A stretch of 64,000 nucleotides of DNA. Origin: Verrucomicrobiales bacterium (lineage in GTDB: Bacteria; Verrucomicrobiota; Verrucomicrobiia; Verrucomicrobiales; DEV007). This document shows, one piece after another, positions 26,773-31,423 of this stretch. The position numbers and the translations under genes are program-made. The stretch spans positions 85,155 through 149,154 of the forward strand of contig JANQVJ010000040.1 of assembly GCA_030730365.1 (NCBI GenBank), read 5' to 3'. Within the stretch, counting starts at the first letter, position 1. Each line of letters begins with the position of its first letter. Under the pieces are notes generated by a model. The model saw only the letters and a list, made by a program, of their open reading frames with translations, did not search any database and was not told the origin of the DNA.

Positions 26773-28755
26773 TCACGGCCCGAAGACCATCCTGACCCCA
26801 CCGAAGACGCCGAATCCGGCTGCTTCGAACCCGCTCGTGTTTTCGTAGTCGAGGTCGAAGACGTTCTCGAGACGACCGCAGAGTTCCACATTGTCCGTCA
26901 GCGCGACGCTGCCGAAGAGGCGGGCCACGGTGTAGTCATCGAGAGAGAAGTTCGGGGCATCGAGTCGCTCGTAGGCACCGCGGATCTCGGCTCCCAGCTT
27001 CCAGGTGTCCCCGCTCACGATGACTCCGCCGGCGAGGCTGTACTCGGGTCGGCGGGTGAGCCGGTCGCCGGGATTCCCGCCGAAACCACCGAGGTACTGA
27101 CCGTCGGTGATGATGGCGTCGAGCCAAGTGGCGTTGGTGTAAAAGCGCAGATTTTCCACCGGCGAATAGACGAACTCGAGCTCGAGTCCGCTGGTCTCGG
27201 TGTCGACGATGGCGGGATCGACGAAGGTGAAGGGATCGACGTCGATGAGGTTGTCCACGTCGGCCTGGAAGTAGGTAAGGGCGACGGAACTGCGTTCGTT
27301 GAAGAAAGTCTGGCGCGCTCCGATTTCCCAGGTCAAACTTTCCTCGGGTTGAAGCGTGGTTGGGTCAATGTTAGGTGCGAGAAAGATGAAATCCTGTCCC
27401 GAGGGAGCCTTGTAGCCGGTCGAGCTTTTAGCAAAAAGAGTCGTCCCGGTAGCCTCGATCTCGCGGCTCAGTTGCGCGGAGTAAGTGCCTTTACTGGTGA
27501 AGGAGTCGTGCTCGTCAAATCGACCGGAAGTGAGGAGCTGGAAGTTTCCCGGCAACTTGAGGTCAGCCTGGGCGAAGACGCTCGCGTAGCTGAATTTGAA
27601 CTCGCTGGGCAGATTGAACGGCCCGGGAATGATTGGGGTGCGCTCGAACTCATAGCCGTAGTAGCCGGCCCCGAGTGTCCAGGTAGCCTCGTCGGTGGGG
27701 CGGTAGTTAAAGACGGCTTCAAGTTCGTGGCCGGTCTGCTCGAGAAGGTTGTCACTGAAGAAAGCGTCCTTTGTCGCCTCGAGTTCGTTGGTGGTGTGAC
27801 TGTAAGAAGTCGAGAAGTCCCAGTCGTCGCGCGTCATGGTGAAGCGGGGTGAGAAAAGGGTGGAGAGATTTTTATTGATCTGCTCTTCGGGAAAGCCTGC
27901 GCTTAGCGATGAACCGGGGACTTCGAGGAAGGAGTCCTGAATGTAGCCGAGGACATCGAAATGAACGCCGTCGCCCAGTTCAATCGCGACATTGCCCCGG
28001 ATGAGACCGTTTTCAAAATCGGACGAGAGGCGGTCGTTCGCTGTCTCAAGGATGCTCGTGTCGAGGGCGATGGCAACGGGGCCGTCCTTGAGGGTAAGCT
28101 TATGACCGGTCCGGAAGGTGGAGAAAGAACCCGCTTCAATGAATGAGGAAAGGGTATTCTCCTCAATGTAGCGCGCGTCGGTCGAGCGCATGTCGATGAC
28201 ACCGGCGAGCGCATCTGAACCATACAGCGAACTCGCGGCACCCTTCGTTATCTGAACCGACTCGAGCGTGGAGACGTCGAGATACTCGAGTTGGTAGATA
28301 CCCGCGAGACCGGGCGGGAGACGGCGACCGTTGAGGAGGACGACGGTGTGGTTGCTCTCCATCCCGCGGATAAAGAGAGAGGTCTGTGCGCCCATTTGCC
28401 CCGCCTCGACGAGGCTAACCCCTGCGGTCTGGCTGAGGATGTCTCCGAGGTCGTAGCGCTGGAAGGTGCGGATCTCCGCCCCGGAGATGGTATCGACGGC
28501 GGGTAGGAGAGTCGTCTCGGTCTTTTCCACGGGGAGGAGGGTCTTGGTGGCGATCGAAGGCGTGTAGAACTGCTGCACGGCCTCCTGCCGGATGATGAGG
28601 GAGCGGACCGGACCGGATGATTCAATCGTGGTGACGTCGAGGGTCGCTACTTCGTCGACAAGGGTGGAGGTGACCTGCTCCTGCGCCCGGATCGCGGGGG
28701 TAAAGGGGAGTAAAGCGGCGGAGAAAATAAAACAAATCAACAAATCACGATTCAT
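26773..28755 (-). CDS. TonB-dependent outer-membrane receptor (BtuB/CirA-like)
   Basis: Signal peptide at MNRDLLICFIFSAALLPFTPAIRAQ; plug domain GAEIRTFQRYDLGDILSQTAGVSLVEAGQMGAQTSLFIRGMESNHTVVLLNGRRLPPGLAG; C-terminal beta strand ending ...FGVFGGVRMVFGP. Start 28755 rather than 29115. Confidence 0.92.
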   Translation of the reverse strand: MNRDLLICFIFSAALLPFTPAIRAQEQVTSTLVDEVATLDVTTIESSGPVRSLIIRQEAVQQFYTPSIATKTLLPVEKTETTLLPAVDTISGAEIRTFQRYDLGDILSQTAGVSLVEAGQMGAQTSLFIRGMESNHTVVLLNGRRLPPGLAGIYQLEYLDVSTLESVQITKGAASSLYGSDALAGVIDMRSTDARYIEENTLSSFIEAGSFSTFRTGHKLTLKDGPVAIALDTSILETANDRLSSDFENGLIRGNVAIELGDGVHFDVLGYIQDSFLEVPGSSLSAGFPEEQINKNLSTLFSPRFTMTRDDWDFSTSYSHTTNELEATKDAFFSDNLLEQTGHELEAVFNYRPTDEATWTLGAGYYGYEFERTPIIPGPFNLPSEFKFSYASVFAQADLKLPGNFQLLTSGRFDEHDSFTSKGTYSAQLSREIEATGTTLFAKSSTGYKAPSGQDFIFLAPNIDPTTLQPEESLTWEIGARQTFFNERSSVALTYFQADVDNLIDVDPFTFVDPAIVDTETSGLELEFVYSPVENLRFYTNATWLDAIITDGQYLGGFGGNPGDRLTRRPEYSLAGGVIVSGDTWKLGAEIRGAYERLDAPNFSLDDYTVARLFGSVALTDNVELCGRLENVFDLDYENTSGFEAAGFGVFGGVRMVFGP

Positions 28756-28782: not shown

Positions 28783-29099
28783 CGATGCAAATCTTTTTCG
28801 CGCATCGCGACCTGGGGTTTTCGCCCGAATTTCGTTCCGTGTATGACACAAGACCCGCTTGCGAACGTGGCCATGGTGAAGGAAACTCTTCCAAGCATCA
28901 GGAGTGGCCCGATGAAAATCGAGTCCGGCAACCTGGTTTGGAGAAGCCAAGGTGCCTTGGATGCTGCGACGGTCATGACCGTGGCAGCATCCGATGTGCG
29001 GACGATTGCGTCCGAACAGAATTTCTCCGGGAAACGCTCGGGAGGACCGGGTCCTCCCAAGTCCTGATGCGGTAACTGAATCCCACGGAAACTGCATCA
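28783..29099 (+). ncRNA. Candidate structured RNA/leader: cluster of hairpins upstream of ORF 29104-29373
   Basis: ccaagg-tg-ccttgg (28947-28960); ggatgctgc-g-acggtcatgaccgt-g-gcagcatcc (28959-28992); cggacg-attg-cgtccg (28999-29014); ggaggacc-g-ggtcctcc (29041-29057); tgatgc...gcatca (29065-29099); cgatgc...gcatcg (28783-28807). No known RNA family recognised. Confidence 0.4.
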
Positions 29100-29103
29100 A
29101 GAA

Positions 29104-29373
29104 ATGACCTATCAAGACTACCTTAACGAGTCCGCCGGCGGCACGAATTCCGCCGTCACGGGAACCCTCTCCGCCTGTGTCCGCGCTTCGCGGTCGGGCT
29201 TGGAATCAAATCCCGATCATCACCTCTGGAACAACCGGGGGACCTGGTGGTGCCACTTCACCCTGCACCGGGCTGACTACACTGCGGAACGAATCCGCGT
29301 CTCGCTGAAGACCCGTGATGTCGAGGTGGCGCGCTCTCGCCGCGATGAACTGCTAGGGTCGCTCGCCCGCTAA
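29104..29373 (+). CDS. Small protein resembling a free-standing integrase N-terminal (arm-type/AP2-like) DNA-binding domain
   Basis: NPDHHLWNNRGTWWCHFTLHRADYTAERIRVSLKTRDVEVARSRRDELLGSLAR has the W-x-f-x...R-x-S-L-x-T-R-D-x-x-x-A-R pattern of tyrosine-recombinase N-termini; no catalytic domain follows. Confidence 0.5.
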   Translation: MTYQDYLNESAGGTNSAVTGTLSACVRASRSGLESNPDHHLWNNRGTWWCHFTLHRADYTAERIRVSLKTRDVEVARSRRDELLGSLAR

Positions 29374-29542: not shown

Positions 29543-31423
29543 TCACTCGACTTCCGCCGCAGGGTAGGACATCCCGAGGATTGCTCCCAGATCCTGGTAT
29601 TTGGCGCGGGCCTCTCTCGCTTCGCGGAGACGTTGCTGGGCGATGGAGGAGTCTTTGTTTGTGAGGCCGAGGTAGAGCTCGGCGGCTTCGATGTAGTCCT
29701 CGGCGGCGGAGTGAAAATCACGCACCTCGACTGCGACTTCGGTCCGCATGCGGGAGAGCTCAAGTGTGGCGGCATCCGTCCGGCCAAGGAGTTCAGGCAG
29801 ATTGACCCCCGGATCGTCCACGCCGAAGAGGGGGGTGATGAGATCGTTGATGCGATTGGCTGACAGGGAAATGCGCAACTCCGGTGACTCAGGGCGACGG
29901 CCGAACTCGAGCATGGCGCGCGCCGAGAGGTGACCGGGCATGCCTTCGAGGATGGTCTCGAGCCGCTCTATCACTTTCGCATTTCTCGCGAGGTCGGTCA
30001 GAGGCATGCGCTCGGCAACCGCCTCGATCTCCCGAAAAACAACCGTGGCGGCGGCGAGTGCCTCGGGCGTCGGTGAAGTGGCGAAGGCGATAGCTTCGTC
30101 GAGAGTTGCGTAGGTGACGAGTTCGTTGTGGAACAGAATCCCGAGCTGGCCGGACTTCACGAGATAGTCAATCAGTTCCTCTGCCGCAGAGGCGGGGACG
30201 AGGAGGTATTTGCCCCTCATGACCGAGGCGGCGGCCTCGATCGTGGCGAGGGTTTCTCCCGGCAGGTTGATCTGCATCGTCGCCGGATCGAGCTCGCCCG
30301 AGAGGATCATCTGCTCGTTAATCGGTGCTTTTCGCAGGATGCTGTCGATGAGGATCACGCCCGGGAGAAAAGCGTCAGCGCGGATAAGGCTGCGGGGCCC
30401 GGGCGGCTTGACCGCGGCAGTGAAAGCTACTTCCCCGAGAGTGCCGACCGGCCAGACCCACGACCGGGTAGCGGCCAAGGCGGCGGGAATCTCGAGGCCT
30501 TCGACGGGGATGTCGTCGTCCGAAGGGATCAATGGCACGGTCATGTTCCCGGAAACGGCTCGCAGCTCGAGATGATCGCGTTCGGCGCTCCCCGAAGGAT
30601 TGCGTTGCGTCAGCTTGACCGTCCCTGCGACAGGTTTGGACTCGATCGCCTTGACCTGACGCACCGTATTGAGGGAGACAATGACGGGTTCGATCGGTTC
30701 GAGCTGAACGGGTGCGGGCACTTCGGCAATCCCGGACGTTCCCGCAGGGGCGACCATCGTCTCGGTAGCGGGGCGGGTCGGTCGATCGACACGGTTTTCA
30801 TTTTTCTCCCGTTGGGCGAGGATGGCGCTGCCCTCCTGAGGGAAAATCTGGGCCCGATCGGTGGAGCGATTGGCATCGCGTTGCAGGGTGAGGAATCTTT
30901 CCCACGGCAGGTTTCCCCCTTCTACCGCGACGGTAAAGGCGGCGATTCGCTCATCGGTGGGCTCGGGATGGGTGAGGAGCGAGAGCTCCATCAGGAAGGG
31001 GGAGAGGCGACGGTGCTCGGGCTCTAGTGGGGGCGAGGCGAGCTGGTTTGCGATCGTCCAGAGGGTCTCGGAGACGACGCTGATACTGTCAAAATAGCTA
31101 GTCGCAACTGGAAGCTCCCCGTTTTCGAGGGCGCGATGAGCGAGCCGTGAATGATAATGCATCGGATCGATGCGAAGGGCAATGCCGAGGGCCTTCTCGC
31201 GGAGGTCGTCGTCGATCCGGCTGCTCGTAGAGAAGTTCGAAGCGATTGCGGAGAGTGCCTCAAGCAGGCTCGTCTTCTGATCTTCAGGGAGGAAAATGCC
31301 GTCGCCGGAGAAGATCAGGGCGTCAAAGTCCGGGCTATCGTAAGCTCCGGCACGGTCCGGCGCGGCCAGCAGGAGGACTGCCCCAAGGAGCAGAAGGATG
31401 GCCGGTTGACGTGGATTTTTCAT
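29543..31423 (-). CDS. Secreted protein with helical repeats and a Lon (S16)-like domain lacking catalytic residues
   Basis: Signal peptide; LIRADAFLPGVILIDSILRKAPINEQMILSGELDPATMQINLPGETLATIEAAASVMRGKYLLVPASAAEELIDYLVKSGQLGILFHNELVTYATLDEAIAFA follows the Lon proteolytic-domain layout; C-terminal TPR-like helices. Confidence 0.6.
   Translation of the reverse strand: MKNPRQPAILLLLGAVLLLAAPDRAGAYDSPDFDALIFSGDGIFLPEDQKTSLLEALSAIASNFSTSSRIDDDLREKALGIALRIDPMHYHSRLAHRALENGELPVATSYFDSISVVSETLWTIANQLASPPLEPEHRRLSPFLMELSLLTHPEPTDERIAAFTVAVEGGNLPWERFLTLQRDANRSTDRAQIFPQEGSAILAQREKNENRVDRPTRPATETMVAPAGTSGIAEVPAPVQLEPIEPVIVSLNTVRQVKAIESKPVAGTVKLTQRNPSGSAERDHLELRAVSGNMTVPLIPSDDDIPVEGLEIPAALAATRSWVWPVGTLGEVAFTAAVKPPGPRSLIRADAFLPGVILIDSILRKAPINEQMILSGELDPATMQINLPGETLATIEAAASVMRGKYLLVPASAAEELIDYLVKSGQLGILFHNELVTYATLDEAIAFATSPTPEALAAATVVFREIEAVAERMPLTDLARNAKVIERLETILEGMPGHLSARAMLEFGRRPESPELRISLSANRINDLITPLFGVDDPGVNLPELLGRTDAATLELSRMRTEVAVEVRDFHSAAEDYIEAAELYLGLTNKDSSIAQQRLREAREARAKYQDLGAILGMSYPAAEVE

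Follow-up and report, generated by a model that had tools for sequence, protein, structure and literature searches.

A probable SAM-I/IV riboswitch upstream of a conserved small protein gene in Verrucomicrobiota

The locus and its leader RNA

The window, a stretch of 64,000 nucleotides from a Verrucomicrobiales bacterium, contains a small open reading frame (ORF) directly preceded by a cluster of inverted repeats (Table 1). The ORF at 29104-29373, originally predicted to encode 90 aa, is present and codes for 89 aa plus the stop codon. On one side lies a gene for a TonB-dependent receptor (26773-28755, minus strand), divergent from the leader and kept beside it in the genus, and on the other a gene for a 626-aa protein without a Pfam match (29543-31423, minus strand), which is also kept beside the locus. 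Synteny of the locus is conserved within the genus.

All inverted repeats named in the original prediction were located where it had placed them. The repeat at 28959-28992 has 17-nt arms with 94% complementarity; further repeats lie at 28995-29018, 29037-29061 and 28942-28965, and 29062-29073 pairs with 29091-29102. Folding of 28900-29110 yielded −103 kcal/mol versus a mean of −69.7 kcal/mol for 200 dinucleotide shuffles (z −6.7), none of which was as low. Folding of the opposite strand was also strong (z −5.9), as expected for palindromes, and because both strands fold well the strand of the leader RNA was assigned by homology. Most of the clustered hairpins proved to be parts of one conserved leader RNA, but the pairing at ccaaggTGccttgg is coincidental and ggaggaccGggtcctcc, located within the linker, is not conserved in the alignment of relatives. 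A separate hairpin at ccaaggTGccttgg (28947-28960) was rejected, since most of its bases form the 3′ side of P3, whose partner is the GGCAACCUGGU strand.

A search of 28850-29110 with a permissive E-value gave a full-length match to the SAM-I/IV riboswitch model RF01725. The score is 1.9 bits under the Rfam cut-off of 41.1 bits, which was counted against the best explanation, and the whole window had no Rfam match at the gathering threshold. At the same place upstream of the homologous gene, many relatives have RF01725 matches of 41-46 bits, above the cut-off. The match in the window is the sole SAM-I-clan riboswitch detected in the genome, and a genome search for SAM-I (RF00162) found none. 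The leader RNA is very probably a diverged member of this known class. The proposed cmscan comparison with Rfam thus identified the RNA once matches below the cut-off were allowed; of the "something undescribed" that had been suspected, the protein family, which lacks a curated name, is left, while the RNA is of a known riboswitch class just under the cut-off. SAM-I/IV riboswitches detect S-adenosylmethionine (SAM), the cell's methyl donor.

Covariation was counted in an alignment of 29 leaders (A1). The proposed structure has 92.5% of cells paired, versus 34-44% with partners slid by 1-3 columns. Double-sided changes occur in 27 pairs (shuffled mean 18.9), and none of the five observed covariation measures was reached by any of 500 shuffles. 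The leader stems for which such a check had been suggested therefore covary far above the controls, with support coming from P2, the inserted stem at 28959-28992 and the hairpin at 28999-29014. P1 and the start-blocking hairpin are nearly invariant; hence, they fit the structure, yet are unproven by covariation. The only irregularities of P2 are one bulged U and one C.A mismatch.

Table 1. Features of the riboswitch locus in window coordinates
Feature	Position	Strand	Basis
TATGACA promoter element, candidate operator	28842..28848	+	conserved upstream of RNA
Probable promoter: TTGCGA (28859-28864) as −35, weak −10 at about 28882-28887	28859..28887	+	CTTGC conserved in relatives; −10 inferred
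SAM-I/IV riboswitch aptamer (very probable)	28890..29030	+	RF01725 39.2 bits, E 3.5e-5, full-length; covariation
P1 5′ strand, partner 28993-28997	28895..28899	+	100% of cells paired in 29 relatives, nearly invariant
P2 hairpin	28904..28926	+	five double-sided-change pairs in its two helix segments
P3 with GGCAACC / GGUGCC core	28927..28956	+	98.1% of cells paired, mostly invariant
Pseudoknot strand GGAGAA in P3 loop, partner UUCUCC 29023-29028	28940..28945	+	98.3% of cells paired, one double-sided-change pair
Extra stem of variable sequence, inserted between P3 and P1 3′ strand	28959..28992	+	14/15 counted outer pairs change both sides
P1 3′ strand GAUGU	28993..28997	+	RF01725 match, covariation alignment
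Hairpin 3′ of P1	28999..29014	+	5/6 pairs change both sides
Pseudoknot 3′ strand UUCUCC	29023..29028	+	covariation alignment
Linker hairpin, not conserved	29041..29057	+	inverted repeat ggaggaccGggtcctcc
Anti-P1 strand UCCUGAUGC, complementary to 28895-28903	29062..29070	+	95.8% of cells paired versus 20-56% slid
Putative start-blocking hairpin UGAUGCGGU (29065-29073) / ACUGCAUCA (29091-29099)	29065..29099	+	98.1% of cells paired, nearly invariant; end 4 nt before ATG
89-aa small protein, probably riboswitch-controlled gene	29104..29373	+	homologues in order and phylum; pN/pS about 0.1
Beta-beta-beta-alpha domain, residues 35-89	29206..29370	+	AlphaFold2 pLDDT 92.9, pTM 0.72; weak DUF6538

In SAM-I/IV riboswitches (RF01725, clan CL00012), P2 is without the internal loop of SAM-I and SAM-IV (PMC2864571, Weinberg et al. 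2010). The RNA of the window shares with this class the P1-P2-P3 core, the GGCAACC/GGUG motifs, the uninterrupted P2, the hairpin after P1 and the 3′ tail (PMC2864571). It differs from RF01725 by a large additional stem that covaries and precedes the P1 3′ strand, by its score under the cut-off, by the small stand-alone protein as probable target, and by a P1 5′ strand that also pairs with a distal anti-P1 strand adjoining the start-blocking hairpin. As in SAM-IV (PMC6890682), the P3 loop pairs with the tail 3′ to the hairpin in a pseudoknot of PK-2 topology, and the ligand core is common to both; unlike SAM-IV, the RNA is assigned by Rfam to SAM-I/IV, and PK-1 was not identified in it. The pocket residues listed for SAM-I are 6-8, 11-12, 44-47, 57-59 and 87 (PMC6890682). 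The putative SAM-pocket positions of the leader, for which the correspondence was set by eye, are invariant or at least 90% conserved in the 29 sequences. We take them to be positions 5-7, 10-11, 37-40, 61-63 and 102/103 of the first A1 sequence. From sequence conservation, the leader RNA would be expected to bind SAM.

Promoter region and expression platform

An RNA family model (R1) was built from the genus of the window and nearby genomes. Of the 46 loci across the phylum that R1 matches, 32 have TATGACA upstream of the RNA, at a distance of 50-54 or 59-64 nt, and in many loci of the alignment it is followed by a −35-like CTTGC element. The difference of roughly ten bases between the two spacings points to a protein bound to one face of the helix, and it is an attractive guess that the small protein itself binds TATGACA. 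The element is absent in five riboswitch loci without the small protein (L127, L128, L129, L130, L241) but present in L294, which is also without it; due to this exception, TATGACA is only suggestive as a mark of the small protein, and the p value of 0.006 for their association was computed without L130 and L294. Upstream of metK and metF in relatives, TATGACA had one distant match each and no regulon was found; this was a rough test because at some loci the target gene may differ from the ORF that was picked. In the genome itself, the other six GTATGACAMA sites are inside predicted ORFs, again giving no regulon, and the combination TATGACA-spacer-CTTG occurs at this promoter only.

The transcript would begin shortly upstream of about 28893. 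The 5′ strand GCAUCAGGA (28895-28903) is perfectly complementary to UCCUGAUGC, which overlaps the 5′ arm of the start-blocking hairpin, and both alternative helices are kept in relatives. The stem of this hairpin, described before as ending 5 nt before the ATG, ends at 29099, 4 nt ahead of the ATG at 29104. When SAM is scarce, GCAUCAGGA would pair with UCCUGAUGC, so that ACUGCAUCA would remain unpaired and the start codon open. With ample SAM, the ligand would bind the P1/P3 core, P1 would form, and the released UGAUGCGGU would pair with ACUGCAUCA into a hairpin that stops initiation. With the start blocked when SAM is bound, the small protein would be made at low SAM, i.e., SAM would be a translational OFF signal.

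Constrained folding of the 29 leaders without ligand gave the ON state (anti-P1) a mean advantage of 2.7 ± 1.6 kcal/mol, with OFF favoured in one leader and a tie in another; pseudoknot, ligand and co-transcriptional folding do not enter into these energies. For the leader in the window, the unconstrained minimum (−103.0 kcal/mol) corresponds to neither state, as it has the start hairpin without P1, and is slightly below ON (−100.3 kcal/mol). Altogether, we regard control of translation of the small ORF by the riboswitch as likely.

The small protein and its linkage to the riboswitch

The gene for the 89-aa protein is single-copy in the genome. Within the order, 72 of 142 genomes have a homologue, mostly a single one, and so do 79 of the 338 genomes that were sampled from the phylum. 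The original prediction had considered that a full-length integrase at orthologous loci could expose the ORF as a truncation; strong homologues are almost all short open frames, with long frames mainly among weak matches. Values of pN/pS were 0.08-0.19 versus same-genus homologues and 0.21-0.28 versus homologues of family f2, which is Akkermansia-like as judged from its proteins. These comparisons indicate that the protein family is under strong purifying selection, phylum-wide in Verrucomicrobiota and mostly stand-alone.

With the integrase N-terminal arm domains DUF6538 (PF20172) and Arm-DNA-bind_3 (PF13356), the protein shares the beta-beta-beta-alpha order of its model and a weak profile similarity over strands 2-3 and the helix. 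Unlike them, the family consists of stand-alone proteins of 75-90 aa with no catalytic domain and with their own conserved motif (N-x-x-HHLWNN-x-G-x-W), and the DUF6538 score (17.9 bits for the whole protein, 19.8 bits for the domain) is under the curated cut-off of 27 bits. DUF6538 is the only recurrent Pfam family (55 of 66 members at E ≤ 0.01), while Arm-DNA-bind_3 is matched weakly in two members. Sequence and fold searches of the PDB gave no meaningful relative and no fold match at E ≤ 0.001, and the same holds for relatives in NCBIfam and PHROGs; no homologue was found in phages and plasmids. Matches in a viral library were weak (E 0.1-1.9) and included a 51-aa protein and two phage integrases. 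The noted likeness to an integrase arm thus stands as a weak DUF6538 similarity in an ORF without the catalytic domain of a tyrosine recombinase or integrase, but not as an integrase remnant, given the stand-alone conserved family. With weak Pfam matches and no significant PDB fold match, it is a reasonable inference that the protein may bind DNA or RNA.

In a coordinate comparison of 57 relatives, 27 of 31 RF01725 matches were directly upstream of the small protein gene. With R1, this was the case for 39 of 41 riboswitches in the order (including L240, where the protein was confirmed) and for 13 of 15 in the phylum sample, or 13 of 14 evaluable ones, as one exception is at a contig end. R1 detects the RNA upstream of many homologues without an above-cut-off Rfam match, and since it was built from the genus and nearby genomes, distant matches are probably undercounted. 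The idea of a structured leader next to a small DNA/RNA-binding-like protein is supported in that homologues keep the leader, which covaries, directly upstream of the ORF. Homologues without the upstream RNA, which would have spoken against it, occur in family f2, in which the protein is kept and no riboswitch was found; the pairing is therefore not obligatory, which was counted against the best explanation. In the f2 loci, among them L107, L109 and L113, the protein is 74 aa long and at times encoded twice, and both riboswitch and TATGACA are missing. The L109 gene follows an ORF resembling ribosomal protein bL28.

In four loci from two families (L124, L069, L240, L238), the small ORF runs into metK, encoding SAM synthetase. 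The overlap is by ATGA in L124 and by TAATG in L238, which belongs to another family, and metK follows directly in L069 and L240, both apparently from the same record. In the genus of the window, the small gene stands alone with no metK nearby. The proximity of metF in L055 was rejected as a link, since tilS lies between.

Competing explanations and related loci

Considering the computed aptamer identity, covariation, competing helices, phylum-wide linkage and metK operons in some lineages, the best explanation as a whole is that a SAM-I/IV-class riboswitch controls translation of a small stand-alone protein, and we consider it probable. The beta-beta-beta-alpha protein would then bind DNA or RNA and pass the SAM signal on to other targets, of which its own TATGACA promoter element may be one; such binding and relay are suggested by the domain and by the weak integrase-arm similarity. 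For a regulatory role of the protein in general, we see the chances as evenly balanced. The most extended version is doubtful, namely that one SAM riboswitch acts via this protein in trans on SAM/methionine-related genes and on its own promoter, replacing separate riboswitches per gene.

Slightly easier to credit than this version, though still short of even, is that the same riboswitch serves an accessory partner of SAM metabolism, e.g., of MetK or of nearby MoxR-type ATPases, with an incidental integrase-arm resemblance. In two families the gene overlaps metK or directly adjoins it, in other lineages MoxR-type AAA genes are close by, and neither a regulon nor a significant structural match to a DNA-binding domain was found, all of which agrees with this, whereas the solitary gene in this genus, with metK not nearby, and DUF6538 as the only recurrent family match argue against it. 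It is improbable that the ligand has changed by drift or that the RNA is an autoregulatory leader to which the small protein itself binds. In favour are the sequence conservation of the expression platform in A1, which goes beyond pairing, the large stem inserted ahead of the P1 3′ strand and the score under the family cut-off. Against it, the pocket positions are kept, metK is downstream in some lineages, and in L127-L130 riboswitches of the same family precede other genes, with the protein missing. A decayed or non-autonomous mobile element, with a truncated integrase as ORF and the hairpins as element ends, can be dismissed almost entirely despite the weak DUF6538 similarity, the strong palindromes and two neighbouring copies in L063 and L113, because the gene is single-copy here and mostly so in relatives, synteny in the genus, pN/pS and the phylum-wide stand-alone family speak against a truncated integrase, phages and plasmids gave no match, and the riboswitch accounts for the hairpins.

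SAM riboswitches are familiar as elements that directly control genes for methionine and SAM. Under the preferred explanation, of a riboswitch controlling the small protein, the SAM sensor sits here, instead of on the usual methionine enzymes, on a small protein that is conserved, has no name and is predicted to have a DNA-binding-like fold, and other members of this phylum of gut and environmental bacteria show the same pairing. Riboswitches can also control regulators, such as c-di-GMP-I riboswitches on tfoX-like genes. The present case is similar in having a metabolite sensor on a regulatory-type gene, not on a metabolic enzyme, and differs in ligand and protein. The open-access literature searched contained no description of a SAM-clan riboswitch that controls a small protein of DNA-binding-like type, and as far as this search shows, the target gene family and the phylum-wide pairing appear to be undescribed. 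Should the protein act as a regulator, a single testable gene would account for the adjustment of these bacteria to the supply of SAM; should it be a MetK partner, it would represent a new way of controlling SAM synthesis. R1 also detects riboswitches missed by the Rfam cut-off.

Several further loci had other genes near the riboswitch. MoxR-type AAA ATPase genes are near or just downstream of it in L072, L117, L122, L123, L129, L220 and L235, which represent several families, and the small protein is present in most of them. In L127 (2054-2163, minus strand, 61 bits), L128 (1880-1988, plus strand, 59 bits) and L130 (1547-1657, plus strand, 44 bits), SAM-I/IV riboswitches with neither the small protein nor the TATGACA element precede a gene for a DUF2637 membrane protein with a helix-turn-helix end, followed by a RadC-like gene (Pfam check in L128). 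In L294 (1153-1443 and 830-1102, both minus strand), TATGACA and the riboswitch precede a 96-aa ORF and an ORF which we take by eye to be MoaD/ThiS-like, with no small protein; a target in sulfur metabolism is possible there.
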